DNA from: Diaminobutyricimonas aerilata
GTDB lineage: Bacteria; Actinomycetota; Actinomycetes; Actinomycetales; Microbacteriaceae
Direction of reading: 5' to 3'
Assembly: GCF_002797715.1 (NCBI RefSeq)
Contig: NZ_PGFF01000001.1
Span: forward strand, 2,379,304-2,443,303
Length of the DNA: 64,000 bases
A program made the translations under genes and the position numbers. The notes beneath the pieces were generated by a model. The model saw only the letters and a program-made list of their open reading frames with translations. It was not told the DNA's origin and did not search any database. The stretch's first letter is position 1; each line of letters opens with the position of its first letter. Of the stretch, positions 12,720 to 18,864 are shown one piece after another.

Positions 12720-13361
12720 GTGAGCACGACACTGCTGCCCGCCGGCGTCCACGGCAGAATGGCGTCGACACCGAGGAGCACCGTGCCGCACGACCGCGAG
12801 GCAGCCGGGCCGGACGAGCCCTCCGCCGTGCGCCGTGAGGAGCCCTGGGAGGCCGTCGTGGCGCGGCTCGTCGCCGACCGCGGCGACGCGTTGCTGCGCT
12901 ACGCGCAACTGCTGTGCGGCAGCCCCGATGACGCCGCCGACCTGGTGCAGGACGCGCTCGTGAAGACCTTCGGCCGGCTGCGGGCCGGACTCACGGTGCA
13001 GAGCGCCGAGGCGTACGTGCGCCGCAGCATCCTGACCACCCACGTGGACCGGGCGCGACGACGGCAACGCTGGAGGCGCATCGCCCACCTCGCGTACCGG
13101 CCCGACGAGGTGCCTGCAGCGACCGACGCGCTCCAGGAGCGCATGGATCTCACCGAGCAGTTGCAGCGACTGTCCCCGCGCGAGCGGGCCTGCGTCGTGC
13201 TGCGCTACTACGAGGACCTCAAGGTCGACGACATCGCCGAGTGGCTCGGGATCAGCCCCGGGACGGTCAAGCGCTACCTCAGCGACGCGCTCGCGAAGCT
13301 CGCGATCGCGCTCGATCCGGCGCACGACGCGGGAAGCGGAGGGGGGCACCATGGCCGATGA
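12720..13361 (+). CDS. ECF (SigE-like) RNA polymerase sigma factor
   Basis: A 213-residue group 4 sigma factor. Region 2 spans ~45-110 (LLRYAQLLCGSPDDAADLVQDALVKTF). Region 4 spans ~140-195 (QRLSPRERACVVLRYYEDL, then a helix-turn-helix WLGISPGTVKRYLSDAL). It has no region 3, as expected for ECF sigmas, and it resembles the actinobacterial SigE-like/SigM subfamily. The GTG start has GGGAGG 6 bases upstream. It overlaps the next gene by 11 bp, the usual layout for a sigma factor and its membrane-bound regulator. An upstream GGAAC (12676) hints at ECF control, but no convincing -10 partner follows. Confidence 0.92.
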   Translation: MSTTLLPAGVHGRMASTPRSTVPHDREAAGPDEPSAVRREEPWEAVVARLVADRGDALLRYAQLLCGSPDDAADLVQDALVKTFGRLRAGLTVQSAEAYVRRSILTTHVDRARRRQRWRRIAHLAYRPDEVPAATDALQERMDLTEQLQRLSPRERACVVLRYYEDLKVDDIAEWLGISPGTVKRYLSDALAKLAIALDPAHDAGSGGGHHGR

Positions 13362-14112
13362 ACGCGGACTCCGCGACGCCTTGGATGGGCACCGGAACGA
13401 CCCGACGCCGACGATCGACGTGGGATCGGTCGTGCGTCGAGCGCGCGGACGGCGCCGCGTGCGAAAGTTCGCCGCCGGCGCGGGTGTCGTGGCGTCGGCG
13501 GCCGCGGTCGTGACGGCGGTCGTCGTGACGCTCCCGCCCCAGGCGACGGTCACCTCCGGAGGCGCCGAGTCGGGCGCCGCGGATGGCGCACCGGGAACCG
13601 GCGCCCCCGACTCGGCGGAGGAGTCGACCGACTCGTTCTCGACGACCGACCTGGCCCCGGCCTACAAGGTGAACGGATGCGAGGGCGCCGTCGCCCTCCC
13701 CGTCGCCGTGGACGGCCTCACGGTCGACGTCGAGTTCCCCGCGGACGCCCCGGTCGGCACTCCCCTCGCGGGCGTCGTCGTGCTGACCAACGACGGCGTG
13801 GCAGCGGTGCGGGGCACGGCCTCGGCGCCTCCGGCCACGACCCTCGGCGAGGAGGGGATCGTGCGGTGGCACTCGAGCGACCTCGGAGCCGTCGCCGTCA
13901 TCGACCTCGCGCCCGGCGCATCCGTGCGTCTCGACGCGACCGTGCAGCCGGTCCGGTGCACGGCCGACGACGAGGCGCTCCCGAGCCTGCCCGACGATCT
14001 CCCCGCCGTCCCCGCCGGCGAGTACACCGTGTCGGCGGCCCTCGACGTGACGCTGAGCGACGGACGGGTCGTGCAGCTCGTGAGCGCGCCGGAACCGGTC
14101 ACCCTGCGCTGA
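13351..14112 (+). CDS. Single-pass membrane protein, possible anti-sigma partner
   Basis: The 253-residue protein has a short cytoplasmic N-terminus (~1-44, DPTPTIDVGSVVRRARGRRR), one membrane helix (~46-66) and an extracytoplasmic domain with two cysteines (NGCEGAV, PVRCTADD). Starting inside the end of the ECF sigma gene with a strong GGAGGGGGG ribosome site suggests tight co-expression. Position and topology suggest an anti-sigma regulator, but I see no ZAS or RskA motif. The functional call is inference from context. Confidence 0.7.
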   Translation: MADERGLRDALDGHRNDPTPTIDVGSVVRRARGRRRVRKFAAGAGVVASAAAVVTAVVVTLPPQATVTSGGAESGAADGAPGTGAPDSAEESTDSFSTTDLAPAYKVNGCEGAVALPVAVDGLTVDVEFPADAPVGTPLAGVVVLTNDGVAAVRGTASAPPATTLGEEGIVRWHSSDLGAVAVIDLAPGASVRLDATVQPVRCTADDEALPSLPDDLPAVPAGEYTVSAALDVTLSDGRVVQLVSAPEPVTLR

Positions 14113-14134
14113 GGATGCCGACATCCGGCGTCGC

Positions 14135-14140
14135 TAGACT
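14135..14140 (+). promoter_or_regulatory. Possible -10 box of the TPM-pspA operon
   Basis: TAGACT about 38 bases before the ATG at 14178, leaving a ~30-base leader with GGAGGGAG as ribosome site. No clear -35. Confidence 0.4.
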
Positions 14141-14177
14141 CCGAGCCACGTTCCGTCGGTGGAGGGAGATCCGGACG

Positions 14178-16235
14178 ATGCGGTCGGTGCGCACCCTGGC
14201 GGTCGCCGCCCTCGCGGCGGTGCTCATCGCGGCGCCGACGGCGGCGCAGGCCGCCGCCCCCATCGACCTCGGCGGCGAGTACGTCGTCGACCAGGTCGGT
14301 GCCCTCGAGGACCGTGGACCCGAAGTGCTCGACGCCCTCGACCGGCTCTACGACCAGTCGGGGCTGCAGTTGTTCGTGGTCTACGTCGACCGCTTCGACG
14401 GGGCCGAGGACGGCTGGGCCGACGCGACCGCCGAACGCAACGGCCTCGGACGCAACGACGTGCTTCTCGCGGTCGCGACCGACGACCGCAACTACGAGCT
14501 CTCGACCGACCTCGACATCCCGCTCACCGAGGCGCAACTCGACGACGTCGAGGCGATCGCCCTCGAGCCGAGTCTGCGCGAGAACGACTGGGCCGGAGCC
14601 GCCGTGGCCACCGCCGACGGGCTCGCCGCGGTCGCGCAGGGGCTGCCGGTGCCGGAGCCCGACATCACGCCGGGCGAGCCCGACCCGGGCCAGCGGAACG
14701 CCTTCCCCTGGGGAACGGTGCTGCTCATCGGCCTCGGCGTGCTCGCGGCGGCCATCGTCGTCTTCCTCGTCGCCGCCGCCGTCGCACGCCGACGTCGTGC
14801 CGCCGAACTCTCGCGCGCCGCCGCCGACCGGGAACGTGAGCTCGAGACGCGCGCCGGCGGCATGCTCGTGGCGCTCGACGACGCGCTCACCACCAGCCGC
14901 CAGGAGCTCGGATTCGCGATCGCCGAATTCGGCGAGCAGGCCACCCGCGACTTCGCGGTCGCGATCGACGAGGCGGCGGCGCAGGTCGGCGAGGCGTTCC
15001 AGCTGCGCCAGCAGCTCGACGACACGACGCAGGAGACGCCCGAGCAGCGGGCCGCCATCTCCCGGCGCATCATCCAGCTCTGCGAAGGCGCGGATGCGGT
15101 GCTCGACGCCCAGCTCGACGCGTTCGAGGCGCTGCGCGACCTCGAGAAGGCGGCCCCCACCCTCGTGCCGGAGCTCGGGGCGCGGCTCACCCCGCTCCGC
15201 GAGCGGATCGCCACGACGGCGGCCACCCTGACGGCGGCCGGGCAGCGCTTCGACGAGGCCGCGCTCGCCGCGGTGGCGGGGAACGCCGAGCAAGCCGACG
15301 AGGTGCTCCGCATCGCCGACACCTCGCTCACCGAGGCCCGTGCCCGGCTCGCGGCGGGCACCTCCGCCGCCGGCCCCGCTCGCGCCGCGCAGGTCGCGCT
15401 CGCCCAGGCCGACGCGCTGCTCGACGCGGTGGGCACGCACCTGCGCAACCTCGATGAAGCGGCGCAGCGCCTCGACGCCGCGATCGCCGACACCGAATCC
15501 GATCTCACCGCCGCCGGGTCGGCGCCGACCGAGGAGGTGACCCGCGCCATCGGCGACGCACGTGCCGCCCTCGACCGGGCGCGTGCCGGACGCCGCTCCC
15601 CCGTCGAGGCCGCTCAAGAGCTGCTGAGCGCGAACGCGCAGCTCGACGCGGTGCTCACGGCCGTGCGAACCGAGCAGGAGAACCGGGCACGGGCGACGAC
15701 CGCACTCGTCACGGCGGTGCAGGCCGCGCGCACCCGCGTCGCCGCGGCGGCGCAGTTCATCGACACCCGACGCGGGGCCGTCGGCGCCGGCCCGCGCACC
15801 CGCCTCTCCGAGGCCCAGCGTCAGCTGCTCGACGCCGAGACCCTCGGTCAGACCGACCCCGTGGCCGCCCTCGGTCGCGCCCAGCATGCCTCCGCGCTCG
15901 CCGACTCGGCACTCGGACTCGCTCGCGCCGACCGCGACAGGTGGTCGGCCGCGCCGCACCCGGCGCAATCGGGTGCCGCCGAACTCGGCGGACTGCTCGG
16001 CTACCTGCTCGGCGGAGACGACGACGGATACGGCTACGACGGAGGCGGATGGTCCTCGGGCCGTCGCAGCGGCGGTTGGTCGGGCGGTTCCTCCGGAGGC
16101 CTGTTCGGCGGGTCCTCGGGCGGCTGGTCCTCCGGTCGGTCCTCGAGCAGCGGATCCCGACGCTCCTCCGGCGGCAGCCGACGCAGTTCCCGGAGCAGCG
16201 GCGGATCGCGCAGCAGCCGGCGCGGCAGATTCTGA
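14178..16235 (+). CDS. TPM-domain membrane protein with coiled-coil and Gly/Ser tail
   Basis: The 685-residue protein has a signal peptide (~1-24, ending AQAAAP), then a TPM/YgcG domain (~27-155: YVVDQVGAL, LQLFVVYVDRF, GRNDVLLAVATDDRNYEL). A membrane helix (~176-200) and a long Ala/Glu/Arg-rich coiled-coil region (~205-610) follow. The last 75 residues are a Gly/Ser/Arg tail (YGYDGGGWSSGRRSGGW, then SSRRGRF). TPM domains occur in membrane-quality and photosystem repair proteins. Start: ATG 14178, 9 bases after GGAGGGAG. It heads an operon with pspA, 46 bp downstream. The pairing suggests the cytosolic coiled coil or tail contacts PspA at the membrane (inference). Confidence 0.88.
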   Translation: MRSVRTLAVAALAAVLIAAPTAAQAAAPIDLGGEYVVDQVGALEDRGPEVLDALDRLYDQSGLQLFVVYVDRFDGAEDGWADATAERNGLGRNDVLLAVATDDRNYELSTDLDIPLTEAQLDDVEAIALEPSLRENDWAGAAVATADGLAAVAQGLPVPEPDITPGEPDPGQRNAFPWGTVLLIGLGVLAAAIVVFLVAAAVARRRRAAELSRAAADRERELETRAGGMLVALDDALTTSRQELGFAIAEFGEQATRDFAVAIDEAAAQVGEAFQLRQQLDDTTQETPEQRAAISRRIIQLCEGADAVLDAQLDAFEALRDLEKAAPTLVPELGARLTPLRERIATTAATLTAAGQRFDEAALAAVAGNAEQADEVLRIADTSLTEARARLAAGTSAAGPARAAQVALAQADALLDAVGTHLRNLDEAAQRLDAAIADTESDLTAAGSAPTEEVTRAIGDARAALDRARAGRRSPVEAAQELLSANAQLDAVLTAVRTEQENRARATTALVTAVQAARTRVAAAAQFIDTRRGAVGAGPRTRLSEAQRQLLDAETLGQTDPVAALGRAQHASALADSALGLARADRDRWSAAPHPAQSGAAELGGLLGYLLGGDDDGYGYDGGGWSSGRRSGGWSGGSSGGLFGGSSGGWSSGRSSSSGSRRSSGGSRRSSRSSGGSRSSRRGRF

Positions 16236-16281
16236 CTCGAACCCACCCGAACGACACCACGACAGGAAAGGACGCCAGCAC

Positions 16282-17019
16282 ATGGCCAAGCAATCGATCC
16301 TCGGGCGCATCGCCCAGCTCGCGAAGGCGAACATCAACGCGCTGCTCGACCAGGCCGAGGACCCGCAGCTCATGCTCGACCAGATGGTCCGCGACTACAC
16401 GAACAGCATCGCGGAGGCCGAGAGCGCCGTCGCCGACACCATCGGCAACCTGCGGATGCTCGAGCAGGACCACCGCGAAGACGTCGCCGCCGCGCAGGAC
16501 TGGGGCCGCAAGGCGCTCGCCGCGAGCGCGAAGGCCGACGAGCTGCGTGCGGCAGGCAACCCCACCGACGCCGACAAGTTCGACCGGCTCGCCAAGGTCG
16601 CGATCGGCAAGCAGCTCGCCGCCGAGAACGAGGCGAAGCAGGCCGAGCCGACGATCGCCTCGCAGAACGAGGTCGTCGAGAAGCTCAAGACCGGTCTCGG
16701 CACGATGCGCGACAAGCTCGAGCAGCTGAAGACCAAGCGCAGCGAGCTCATCGCGCGCCAGAAGACAGCGGAGGCGCAGTCCCGCGTGATCGACGCGGTC
16801 AAGAGCATCGACATCCTCGACCCCACGAGCGAGATCGGACGCTTCGAAGACAAGATCCGCCGCGAAGAGGCCCGCGTGATGGGGCAGCAGGAACTCGCCG
16901 CCTCGACGCTCGACTCCCAGTTCGAGAGCCTCGAAGACCTCGATCGGGAGACCGAGATCGAGGCGCGGCTCGCCGCCCTCAAGAGCGGCGGCGCGAAAGC
17001 GGTGACCGCTGGCGAGTGA
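16282..17019 (+). CDS. pspA: PspA/IM30 family membrane-stress protein
   Basis: The 245-residue protein is helical almost throughout. It opens MAKQSILGRIAQLAKANINALLDQAEDP, the amphipathic first helix and conserved DxAEDP-type segment of PspA/Vipp1 (ESCRT-III-like) proteins. Long charged coiled coils follow, including MLDQMVRDY and IGRFEDKIRREEARVMGQQEL. Members polymerise on damaged inner membrane and protect it. The RBS AGGAAAGGA lies 10-18 bases upstream of the ATG. It sits between the TPM gene (46 bp upstream) and a polytopic membrane protein gene (4 bp downstream). Confidence 0.92.
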   Translation: MAKQSILGRIAQLAKANINALLDQAEDPQLMLDQMVRDYTNSIAEAESAVADTIGNLRMLEQDHREDVAAAQDWGRKALAASAKADELRAAGNPTDADKFDRLAKVAIGKQLAAENEAKQAEPTIASQNEVVEKLKTGLGTMRDKLEQLKTKRSELIARQKTAEAQSRVIDAVKSIDILDPTSEIGRFEDKIRREEARVMGQQELAASTLDSQFESLEDLDRETEIEARLAALKSGGAKAVTAGE

Positions 17020-17023
17020 CGCG

Positions 17024-18058
17024 GTGCGGTCGGGGCGGTTCCGCGCCGCCCCGACCACCTTCGGACCCGATCGCCTCCCGGGTCTCGACATCGCTCGTGC
17101 CCTCGCGGTGCTCGGCATGTTCGCCGCGCACACGATCGCACGTGACGGCGCCGAGAGCCTCGTCAACGGGCGCTCCTCCGTGCTGTTCGCGACGCTCGCG
17201 GGGGTGTCGCTCGGCCTCATGACCGGCGGTCCGACGCCCTCGCGCGGGACCGCCCGGTTCGCCGGGGCCGCCTCCATCGCGATGCGGGGTCTCCTGCTGC
17301 TCGCGCTCGGCCTGCTGTTGTGGGGCCTCCGCACCGACATCGCCGTGATCCTCGACTACTACGGCGTGATGTTCCTCCTGCTGCTTCCGGTGCTCTTCGC
17401 GCCGCGCTGGGTGGTCGCGATCGTGGGCGCCGCGGCGGCCGTGGTCGGCCCGGTCGCGAAGGAGGCCGCCCTCGGCGCTGTGCCGGAGGGCGGCTCGCTC
17501 GTGCTCGATCGCCTGCTCACCGGCTACTACCCCGCCCTCATCTGGCTCGCCTACCTCGCCGCCGGGCTCATCGCCGCCCGCAGCGACCTGCGCCGTGCGC
17601 GCACCCAGACCGTCGTCGCGGTCACCGGACTGCTCGGCATGGTGCTCGGCTACGGCGGTGCCGCCCTGCTGCCGGGAGTCGACGCCGAGGCGCACTCGGA
17701 CTCGACCGCCGAGGTGCTCGGTTCCGGCGGACTCGCTCTCGTCGTGATCGCGATTCTCGTCTGGCTCACCTCGCCCGAGCGGCGAGCCCTCGGGCGCGCA
17801 GCCCGGATCGTCACGTGGCCCCTCGCCGCGACGGGGTCGATGGCCCTGACGGTGTACGTGGCCCAGCTGCTCGTGCTCGCCGCGTGGATCGACACCCGAC
17901 CCGACCGCTTCGACGTCGACTACCCGCCGACGTTGTTCGCCGCGCTCGCGGTCGGCTCGATCCTTTTCGGCACGGTGTGGCGCGCCACCCTCGGCGCGGG
18001 GCCGCTCGAGCGACTGTTCCGCGCGCTGACGATCACCCCCTTCCGGCGCACCCGCTGA
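17024..18058 (+). CDS. Polytopic membrane protein, DUF418/DUF1624 (HGSNAT-like)
   Basis: The 344-residue protein has about 8-10 membrane helices. It opens with DRLPGLDIARALAVLGMFAAH, whose Arg, Asp and terminal His pattern is typical of the DUF1624/HGSNAT-type acyltransferase-like family. The C-terminal GSMALTVYVAQLLVL resembles DUF418. A transported or acylated substrate cannot be inferred. The GTG start lies 4 bp after the pspA stop, so it is the third gene of the TPM-PspA operon. Confidence 0.8.
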   Translation: MRSGRFRAAPTTFGPDRLPGLDIARALAVLGMFAAHTIARDGAESLVNGRSSVLFATLAGVSLGLMTGGPTPSRGTARFAGAASIAMRGLLLLALGLLLWGLRTDIAVILDYYGVMFLLLLPVLFAPRWVVAIVGAAAAVVGPVAKEAALGAVPEGGSLVLDRLLTGYYPALIWLAYLAAGLIAARSDLRRARTQTVVAVTGLLGMVLGYGGAALLPGVDAEAHSDSTAEVLGSGGLALVVIAILVWLTSPERRALGRAARIVTWPLAATGSMALTVYVAQLLVLAAWIDTRPDRFDVDYPPTLFAALAVGSILFGTVWRATLGAGPLERLFRALTITPFRRTR

Positions 18059-18084
18059 CCGCACGTCCCGCTCCCGCCGGCGCG

Positions 18085-18143
18085 GTTTCCCGTCAGTAGA
18101 TGCCCTTTCGCCGCGCCGATGAGGGCATCTACTGACGGGAAAC
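18085..18143. repeat. Perfect 22-bp inverted repeat (hairpin)
   Basis: The arm 18085-18106 (GTTTCCCGTCAGTAGATGCC plus CT) is the exact reverse complement of 18122-18143, around a 15-base loop that can itself pair TCG/CGA. There is no T-tract on either side. It lies after the DUF418 gene and 39 bp upstream of the SigR-type promoter at 18182. It could be a factor-independent transcription barrier, a dispersed palindromic element, or an operator. Confidence 0.9.
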
Positions 18144-18181
18144 GGACCAAACCGGTGATCCGCTGGGTGCGCGGAGCAGCG

Positions 18182-18207
18182 GGAATCCCCGCGGGGGCGG
18201 AGCAGTT
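18182..18207 (+). promoter_or_regulatory. SigR/SigH-type promoter, GGAAT-N18-GTT
   Basis: GGAAT (18182-18186) and GTT (18205-18207) are separated by exactly 18 bases. This matches the known consensus for actinobacterial SigR (SigH) thiol-stress promoters. GTT ends 9 bases before the ATG at 18217, so the transcript would be leaderless or nearly so. The same exact arrangement precedes the sigR-like gene at 60.4 kb. Confidence 0.7.
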
Positions 18208-18216
18208 GGGGCGGAC

Positions 18217-18864
18217 ATGACGACCATCGGATTCATCGGTTCAGGACACATCGGCAGCCAGCTCGCGCGCCTCGCGGTCGCGCAGGGCCACGACGTGGTG
18301 CTCAGCAACTCGCGCGGCCCGGAGACCCTCGGCGACCTCGTCGCCGAGCTCGGCGACCAGGCGCGAGCGGGCACCGTGCAGGGAGCGGCCGAGGCGGCCG
18401 ACATCGCCGTCGTCACCATCCCGCTGCGCGCGATCGACAGCGTGCCCGCCGAGCCGCTCGCCGGCAAGGTCGTCATCGACACGAACAACTACTACCCGCA
18501 GCGCGACGGCCACATCGCCGAGCTGGACGCCGAGACCACGACGAGCGCGGAGCTGCTGCAAGCGCGCCTGCCCCAGTCGCACGTGGTGAAGGCGTTCAAC
18601 CACATCTACTCGAGCGCGCTCACGCAGGAGGGGCAGCCCGCCGGCACCGAGGACCGGCGTGCCCTCGTCGTGGCCGGCGACGACGAGGACGCCAAGCGCG
18701 TCGTCGGCGAGCTCATCGACTCCTTCGGATTCGACGTCGTCGATGCCGGTCCGCTGAGCGAAGGCTGGCGCATCCAGCGCGACACACCCGGATACGGCCC
18801 GCGGCGCACCGCGGACGAGCTGCGCGCCGACCTCGCAGCCGCGAAGCGGTACCGCGACATGTGA
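18217..18864 (+). CDS. NAD(P)-binding oxidoreductase, NADPH-dependent F420 reductase-like
   Basis: The 215-residue protein begins MTTIGFIGSGHIGSQLARLA, a Rossmann GxGxxG that binds the cofactor, followed by SNSRGPETL, which suits NADP phosphate binding. The fold matches the F420:NADPH oxidoreductase/ProC N-terminal family: VVTIPLRAI, VVIDTNNYYP, VVKAFNHIYS. True F420 reductase activity is not proven by sequence. A perfect SigR-type promoter predicts induction by thiol or redox stress, where an NADPH-linked reductase would fit. Confidence 0.87.
   Translation: MTTIGFIGSGHIGSQLARLAVAQGHDVVLSNSRGPETLGDLVAELGDQARAGTVQGAAEAADIAVVTIPLRAIDSVPAEPLAGKVVIDTNNYYPQRDGHIAELDAETTTSAELLQARLPQSHVVKAFNHIYSSALTQEGQPAGTEDRRALVVAGDDEDAKRVVGELIDSFGFDVVDAGPLSEGWRIQRDTPGYGPRRTADELRADLAAAKRYRDM

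Follow-up and report, generated by a model that had tools for sequence, protein, structure and literature searches.

The closest described counterpart of the gene pair treated here is pspA-ydjGHI of Bacillus subtilis, in which the TPM-domain membrane protein YdjH is co-encoded with PspA. As described in the sections of PMC8581546 on these genes, deletion of ydjH abolishes PspA membrane foci, and two-hybrid signals are recorded for YdjH with PspA and for YdjH with itself. In the corresponding parts of PMC11237479, the conserved PspA partner in these systems is given as YdjH, a TPM protein that carries a long coiled coil or a low-complexity segment, and a chaperone-like role is proposed; phosphatase activity of TPM proteins is doubted there and in passages of PMC12419801. 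Extracytoplasmic function (ECF) σ factors control B. subtilis pspA (σW) and Streptomyces coelicolor sco2168 (σE), according to the parts of PMC8581546 and PMC6767563 that deal with them. Actinobacterial TPM proteins include mycobacterial Rv2345 and Corynebacterium glutamicum cg2496, the TPM domain of the latter having been solved (2kpt). For bacteria without PspB and PspC, the placing of PspA at damaged membranes has been worked out in only a few models. The subject of this analysis is a locus of three intact open reading frames on the + strand of Diaminobutyricimonas aerilata (genome a single contig of 3.49 Mb), encoding a TPM protein, PspA and a DUF418 protein. It lies in a 64,000-nucleotide stretch of contig NZ_PGFF01000001.1 (positions 2,379,304 to 2,443,303), which in its entirety is called the window.

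As in pspA-ydjGHI, a TPM membrane protein is co-encoded with PspA; the window differs in that the TPM gene precedes pspA and that its product carries a helical domain of ~390 residues. By Pfam, no SPFH (YdjI-type) gene lies beside the pair (the two Band_7 matches of the genome are ~0.6 and ~0.3 Mb off; YdjG was not part of the search) and, because none accompanies it, we refer to a YdjH-like protein rather than to a ydj operon. Nor does PspC stand beside PspA as in classical Psp (PspABC): one PspC match lies ~0.69 Mb away, and PspB was not searched. The end of YdjH, ...SRGSF as read from the ydjH reverse primer printed in PMC8581546, resembles the GxF end of the window protein. The core idea of a TPM-PspA partnership, also for TPM proteins that have a long coiled coil, has been published before, since pertinent passages of PMC11237479 name a TPM-coiled-coil partner of PspA and those of PMC8581546 show anchoring by YdjH. 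What is added here is the helical domain as the probable PspA-linked part and the predicted identity of the DUF418 neighbor, neither of which figures in these passages. (In the relevant passages of Ravi et al. 2024, PMC11237479, on gene contexts, the helical domain is not singled out, and TPM-less paralogs and a DUF418 neighbor do not appear.)

The reading that we favor, at slightly better than an even chance, is that the TPM-helical protein spans the membrane as an anchor and docks PspA through a helical rod in the cytoplasm. Its gene and pspA would then constitute a Psp-type membrane-protection module: the protein would cross the membrane once, with TPM outside and the rod directed into the cytoplasm, and the rod, by docking PspA, would bring polymers of PspA to membrane sites of envelope disturbance; the DUF418 protein would be a lineage-specific accessory or passenger. 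The contact between rod and PspA and the triggering by stress are presumed; a role in envelope stress is suggested by homologues, and the requirement for PspA foci and the binding known for the YdjH-type anchor of B. subtilis are predicted here by likeness.

Linkage of the TPM-helical gene to pspA

Two samples were searched, 119 genomes of relatives and 296 genomes from across the phylum (gene calls outside the window are those of a simple gene caller, uncurated). Among the relatives, TPM is found in 62 genomes, PspA in 70 and both in 58, and PspA lies downstream on the same strand for 56 of 63 TPM matches; in 53 of the 56 it lies 1.4-1.94 kb beyond the TPM match. The linkage is well beyond chance, and the association proposed in an earlier note on this DNA is not random. 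(The 56 pairs are 55 fetched loci and the window; L071, L077 and L106, for which the gene caller gave no pair, were dropped, leaving 53 proteins. Alignments A1-A3 were made on chosen subsets of 49, 22 and 59 sequences.) Among the named loci, 79 in all, PspA is the next gene in 66; of the remaining 13, 8 have the TPM-helical gene as the last before a contig end. Named loci with the pair include those of Microbacteriaceae, Streptomyces, Cryobacterium, Clavibacter, Rathayibacter, Sanguibacter and Oerskovia. TPM and PspA are each single-copy in the D. aerilata genome by genome search.

The phylum-wide sample discriminates between the parts of the TPM protein. Its 78 TPM matches comprise 24 that are fused to the helical domain and 54 that are not. 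Of the former, 13 are followed on the same strand by PspA within 4 kb, and of the latter none; a single unfused gene has PspA within 6 kb in another arrangement. (Adjacency in this sample was scored against PspA positions in those genomes that have a TPM or helical match.) Every one of the 27 genomes with a clear helical-domain match has PspA, or 27 of 29 when two marginal matches (G133 and G263, both without PspA) are included; by comparison, PspA is present in 18 of the 39 genomes having TPM without the helical domain and in 131 of all 296. In the relatives, PspA is present in 61 of 62 genomes having the helical domain. Individual genomes are informative as well: G069 retains signal peptide, TPM and transmembrane helix and has no helical domain, tail or PspA, while in G015, of another genus, a TPM-less helical paralog is divergently oriented to PspA, with its start 53 bp away. 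These neighborhood data suggest that the helical domain, rather than the tail or TPM, is the PspA-linked part. The recruiting role that the earlier note gave to the coiled coil and tail fits YdjH, but the tail is not where the neighborhood points. If the helical domain is the docking part, it can serve as a marker for PspA-linked anchors where TPM alone fails (13/24 as against 0/54).

Architecture of the TPM-helical protein and its paralogs

The TPM domain is recognized by Pfam (TPM_phosphatase, 64.5 bits, cut-off 22.1), by phmmer through the cg2496 structure 2kpt (E 2.5e-7) and by structure comparison, which confirms the fold (5anp, Z 16.2; 2kpt, Z 14.8). The same fold matches Psb32 (8c7i), TLP18.3 (3pvh) and a subunit of the mycobacterial bcc:aa3 supercomplex (6adq chain J, Z 11.6; 8hcr chain J, Z 11.9). 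The single transmembrane helix reaches a Kyte-Doolittle maximum of 3.06, and the signal peptide, together with the arginines that follow this helix, predicts that TPM is outside and the helical domain cytoplasmic. The partner is a full-length PspA (PspA_IM30, PF04012, 114.9 bits, cut-off 33.9; residues 5-235 on model positions 1-216 of 220), which matches Vipp1/PspA relatives in the Protein Data Bank (PDB) down to E 5e-16, and polymerization of this product on membranes, a property of its family, is predicted.

In an alignment of 53 proteins the helical domain (residues 207-598) is nearly gap-free, with several invariant residues, among them D234, F246, G252, F274, R320 and R540. Pfam does not recognize it, and no PDB sequence matches it significantly; a relationship to a solved structure was rejected, since the best profile match, to a coiled-coil lipoprotein, reaches only E 0.02. 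In the AlphaFold2 model it consists of about nine main helices (189-251, 288-357, 398-446 and 475-530 among them), predicted with confidence: the predicted local distance difference test score (pLDDT) of 10-residue blocks in the domain is mostly >90 (84.7 overall; predicted template modeling score, pTM, 0.54). The domain would therefore be better termed a multi-helix rod or bundle than one coiled coil; of the architecture first proposed, TPM, the one membrane helix and the Gly/Ser/Arg tail stand, and the ~400-residue coiled coil is revised. Fold matches of the domain to EzrA, vinculin and talin were set aside as being at the level common for helical bundles: the likeness to the EzrA cytoplasmic domain (4uxv, Z 10.7, root-mean-square deviation (rmsd) 20.1; 4uy3, Z 10.3, rmsd 9.8) is below ~Z 13, given for the comparison tool as the level separating helical bundles from common arrangements. 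The EzrA rod is likewise anchored by a transmembrane helix. PspA and ESCRT-III folds are absent among the fold matches listed for the domain, which excludes nothing.

The tail, a G-, S- and R-rich stretch of some 85 residues, is most strongly conserved at its very end: among 129 TPM-helical proteins, the final residue is F in 121 and the last three are GRF in 108 (L101, with a frame-shifted tail, is excluded). In the first 53 proteins, 51 end in F, against an F frequency of 0.058 in the tail. Residues 678-684 (window 16209-16232) are modeled by AlphaFold2 as a β strand (block pLDDT 93) and, because the remaining strands of the model are all in TPM, this strand should pair with TPM. A hydropathy of 1.6 is attained by the tail segment in 44 of 126 proteins, whereas the window protein comes to just 0.78, and a self-clasp of the tail by way of a second transmembrane helix is accordingly a weak candidate. 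In the 129 proteins, net charge of the tail correlates with that of TPM (-0.30, p 0.0006; kinship ignored, so that this is suggestive only) and not with that of PspA (0.02). YgcG of Escherichia coli, a TPM protein without helical domain, ends in GRW and is not beside pspA in the stretch seen; in K-12 (L221:6558-7584), ygcG lies shortly after yqcG, which is annotated as a cell envelope stress response protein.

The helical domain also occurs without TPM. A second helical-domain gene of the D. aerilata genome, ~0.12 Mb downstream of the window end (L201:5944-7200 = G000:C1:2558843-2560099), encodes a 418-residue protein with an N-terminal transmembrane helix and no TPM; its neighbor is a large gene in divergent orientation, which matches DUF4011 and shows weak helicase-like matches. 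In a tree of 81 sequences, all 18 TPM-less proteins form one clade (support 0.999). The G015 protein groups within it, so that its interpretation as a broken TPM gene was rejected. The Gly-rich GRF ending is found in none of the 18; six finish in a Gly-rich stretch whose terminus is acidic or Phe-rich and the rest are tail-less, L204 ending in GARF without a Gly tail.

The DUF418 gene, transcription signals and upstream neighbors

The three genes are separated by gaps of 46 bp (TPM gene to pspA) and 4 bp (pspA to DUF418 gene), just as the earlier note had them; coordinates are collected in the table below. Its label for the third product, DUF418/DUF1624, holds in its first half: DUF418 (PF04235) matches with 36.7 bits (cut-off 23.6), while HGSNAT_cat (PF07786), which we take to be the former DUF1624, falls below its cut-off (19.8 of 22). 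The predicted structure (pLDDT 82.8, pTM 0.83, from eight sequences) shares its fold with human HGSNAT, the lysosomal membrane acetyltransferase (Foldseek best E 1.2e-4, TM-score 0.61 by query; by VIA, Z 24.4 over 304 residues, rmsd 5.1, 14% identity), GWT1 being next (Z 16.2) and the remaining matches at Z about 6. H36, R40 and E44 are invariant in all eight sequences. The DUF418 protein is probably an acyl-CoA-dependent acyltransferase acting on an envelope molecule.

The DUF418 gene adjoins PspA in 7 of the 70 PspA-bearing relatives and 7 of the 79 named loci. (Sixty-one places were tested out of >100 match rows; the others, second pieces or lower-scoring, include none near PspA by eye.) Spacing between the two genes, in the six loci with both called, window included, is -4 to 28 bp. 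In the one genome of the same genus among those searched (G001, 85% complete) the DUF418 gene occupies the same neighborhood without TPM or PspA. The DUF418 gene is thus a minor, lineage-specific accessory or passenger; that the three genes, proposed as one envelope-stress operon, form a conserved unit is not supported. Among the papers searched, none mentions both DUF418 and PspA. The perfect inverted repeat shortly 3' of its stop codon, a candidate operon end, folds at -48.4 kcal/mol (z -8.6) and has no T run; the window holds no second copy at <=3 mismatches, and among the fetched loci its 14-base core is confined to those of this site.

At 67 of 130 loci, the 100 bp preceding the TPM gene contain a -10-like hexamer, TASNMT, where mononucleotide shuffling predicts 15.3; ahead of pspA it occurs in 2 of 50, with 4.4 predicted. 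A single transcript that starts before TPM would give this pattern. A scan of 13900-18250 for the σ70 consensus gave no site. The motif GGAAC-N15-18-CGT was rejected as evidence of ECF control: it is present in 3 of 128 upstream regions (1.7 by shuffling) and in 15 of 584 for other genes.

Features of the locus, in window coordinates
Feature	Position	Strand	Remarks
ECF σ factor gene	12783..13361	+	upstream neighbor; linkage in part of the family only
Single-transmembrane protein gene	13351..14112	+	11-bp overlap with ECF gene; anti-σ-like by position only, no Pfam match
TAGACT, candidate -10 hexamer	14135..14140	+	starts 43 bp before TPM start codon
TPM-helical membrane protein gene	14178..16235	+	685 aa, ATG start; signal peptide, TPM, transmembrane helix, helical domain, Gly/Ser/Arg tail
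TPM domain	14283..14630	+	residues 36-151, predicted extracytoplasmic; Pfam PF04536; fold matches 2kpt, 3pvh, 8c7i, 5anp
Predicted transmembrane helix	14709..14783	+	about residues 178-202, then RRRR; from sequence and hydropathy
Helical domain	14796..15971	+	residues 207-598, predicted cytoplasmic; conserved; occurs also in TPM-less paralogs
Gly/Ser/Arg tail	15969..16232	+	residues 598-685; conserved GG-hydrophobic segment near 602-613; C-terminal GRF
pspA	16282..17019	+	245 aa, ATG start; sole PspA_IM30 gene of the genome
DUF418 gene	17024..18058	+	344 aa, GTG start; predicted HGSNAT-type membrane acyltransferase; accessory
Perfect inverted repeat, 21-bp arms	18086..18142		shortly 3' of DUF418 stop codon; candidate operon end

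Directly 5' of the TPM gene lie an ECF σ gene and an overlapping gene for a single-transmembrane protein (window 12783-14112). In a minority of loci, L052, L079 and L095-L097 among them, TPM is likewise preceded by this pair; in L239 and L240 it stands directly before PspA, the TPM gene being missing there.

Alternative readings

Several observations weigh against a rod that docks PspA. Three genomes (G022, G043 and G052) keep PspA although the TPM-helical gene is gone from the site, and only a TPM-less paralog remains, elsewhere in the genome. PspA is non-adjacent in 11 of the 24 TPM-helical cases of the phylum-wide sample, 8 of them in family f22, which is presumably of mycobacterial type: genomes of this family carry TPM fused to the helical domain (L120 and L121, genes that we take, from gene order, to be Rv2345 orthologs) but, unlike the window, do not have PspA as the next gene. 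TPM-less paralogs are mostly away from PspA, with none of 16 hits in that sample within 6 kb (several of the 16 being partial or marginal), and the helical domain is missing from 9 of the 70 PspA genomes, 7 of which were examined and show other PspA contexts, for example with a PspAA-like neighbor. The co-occurrence counts, too, are uncorrected for shared ancestry. A separate difficulty is that pairing of the C-terminal strand with TPM conflicts with the topology, which would put the membrane between TPM and tail; the modeled strand may be an artefact.

These points have to be set beside the other ways in which the locus can be read. It might be that TPM is the working part, in a module that aids assembly of membrane or respiratory complexes in chaperone-like fashion, with the helical domain as a mere spacer; the fold matches to Psb32, TLP18.3 and the bcc:aa3 supercomplex subunit, and the role proposed in passages of PMC11237479, speak for this. 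We consider it rather unlikely, in that none of the 54 TPM genes without the helical domain precedes PspA and that a mere spacer would not be expected to be nearly gap-free with invariant residues. The tail could instead be the recruiting element, its Gly-rich, basic, GRF-ending sequence condensing or binding PspA, and conservation of its last residues would fit. Yet the GRF-type ending tracks TPM and not PspA, as the GRW end of YgcG indicates, the PspA-adjacent G015 protein is without it, and tail charge is uncorrelated with that of PspA, all of which makes such a role very doubtful. Highly improbable, finally, is a single stress regulon of the three genes, perhaps with the ECF pair, in which the acyltransferase would modify lipids or wall polymers while PspA patches the membrane: the close spacing of pspA and DUF418 gene in the window and its relatives, the hairpin that follows, and the ECF control described in parts of PMC8581546 and PMC6767563 for pspA and sco2168 are in its favor, but DUF418 is seldom adjacent, an ECF gene is directly upstream in part of the family only, the ECF motif is not enriched, and TPM has its own -10-like hexamer.

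The reading in which the rod of a TPM-helical anchor docks PspA can also be extended. The helical domain would then be a PspA-docking module in its own right, deciding where PspA acts in TPM-fused and TPM-less actinobacterial membrane proteins alike, with TPM as an interchangeable outer sensor clasped by the protein's own C-terminal GRF strand. For such a clasp, the hydrophobic, glycine-rich segment in the tail would have to pass back through the membrane. The extension is quite unlikely.

Other proteins are encoded next to PspA in the loci that were fetched. In L225, L232, L233, L234 and L235, a PspA of a second kind is preceded, mostly with a 1-4 bp overlap, by a protein of 204-212 residues that has one transmembrane helix and a helical part and is possibly another membrane anchor of PspA. 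In L226, L228, L231 and L238, PspA is followed by a protein of 92-100 residues, presumably a counterpart of the PspAA partner described in print; a WXG100-like gene lies upstream in L226 and L228.

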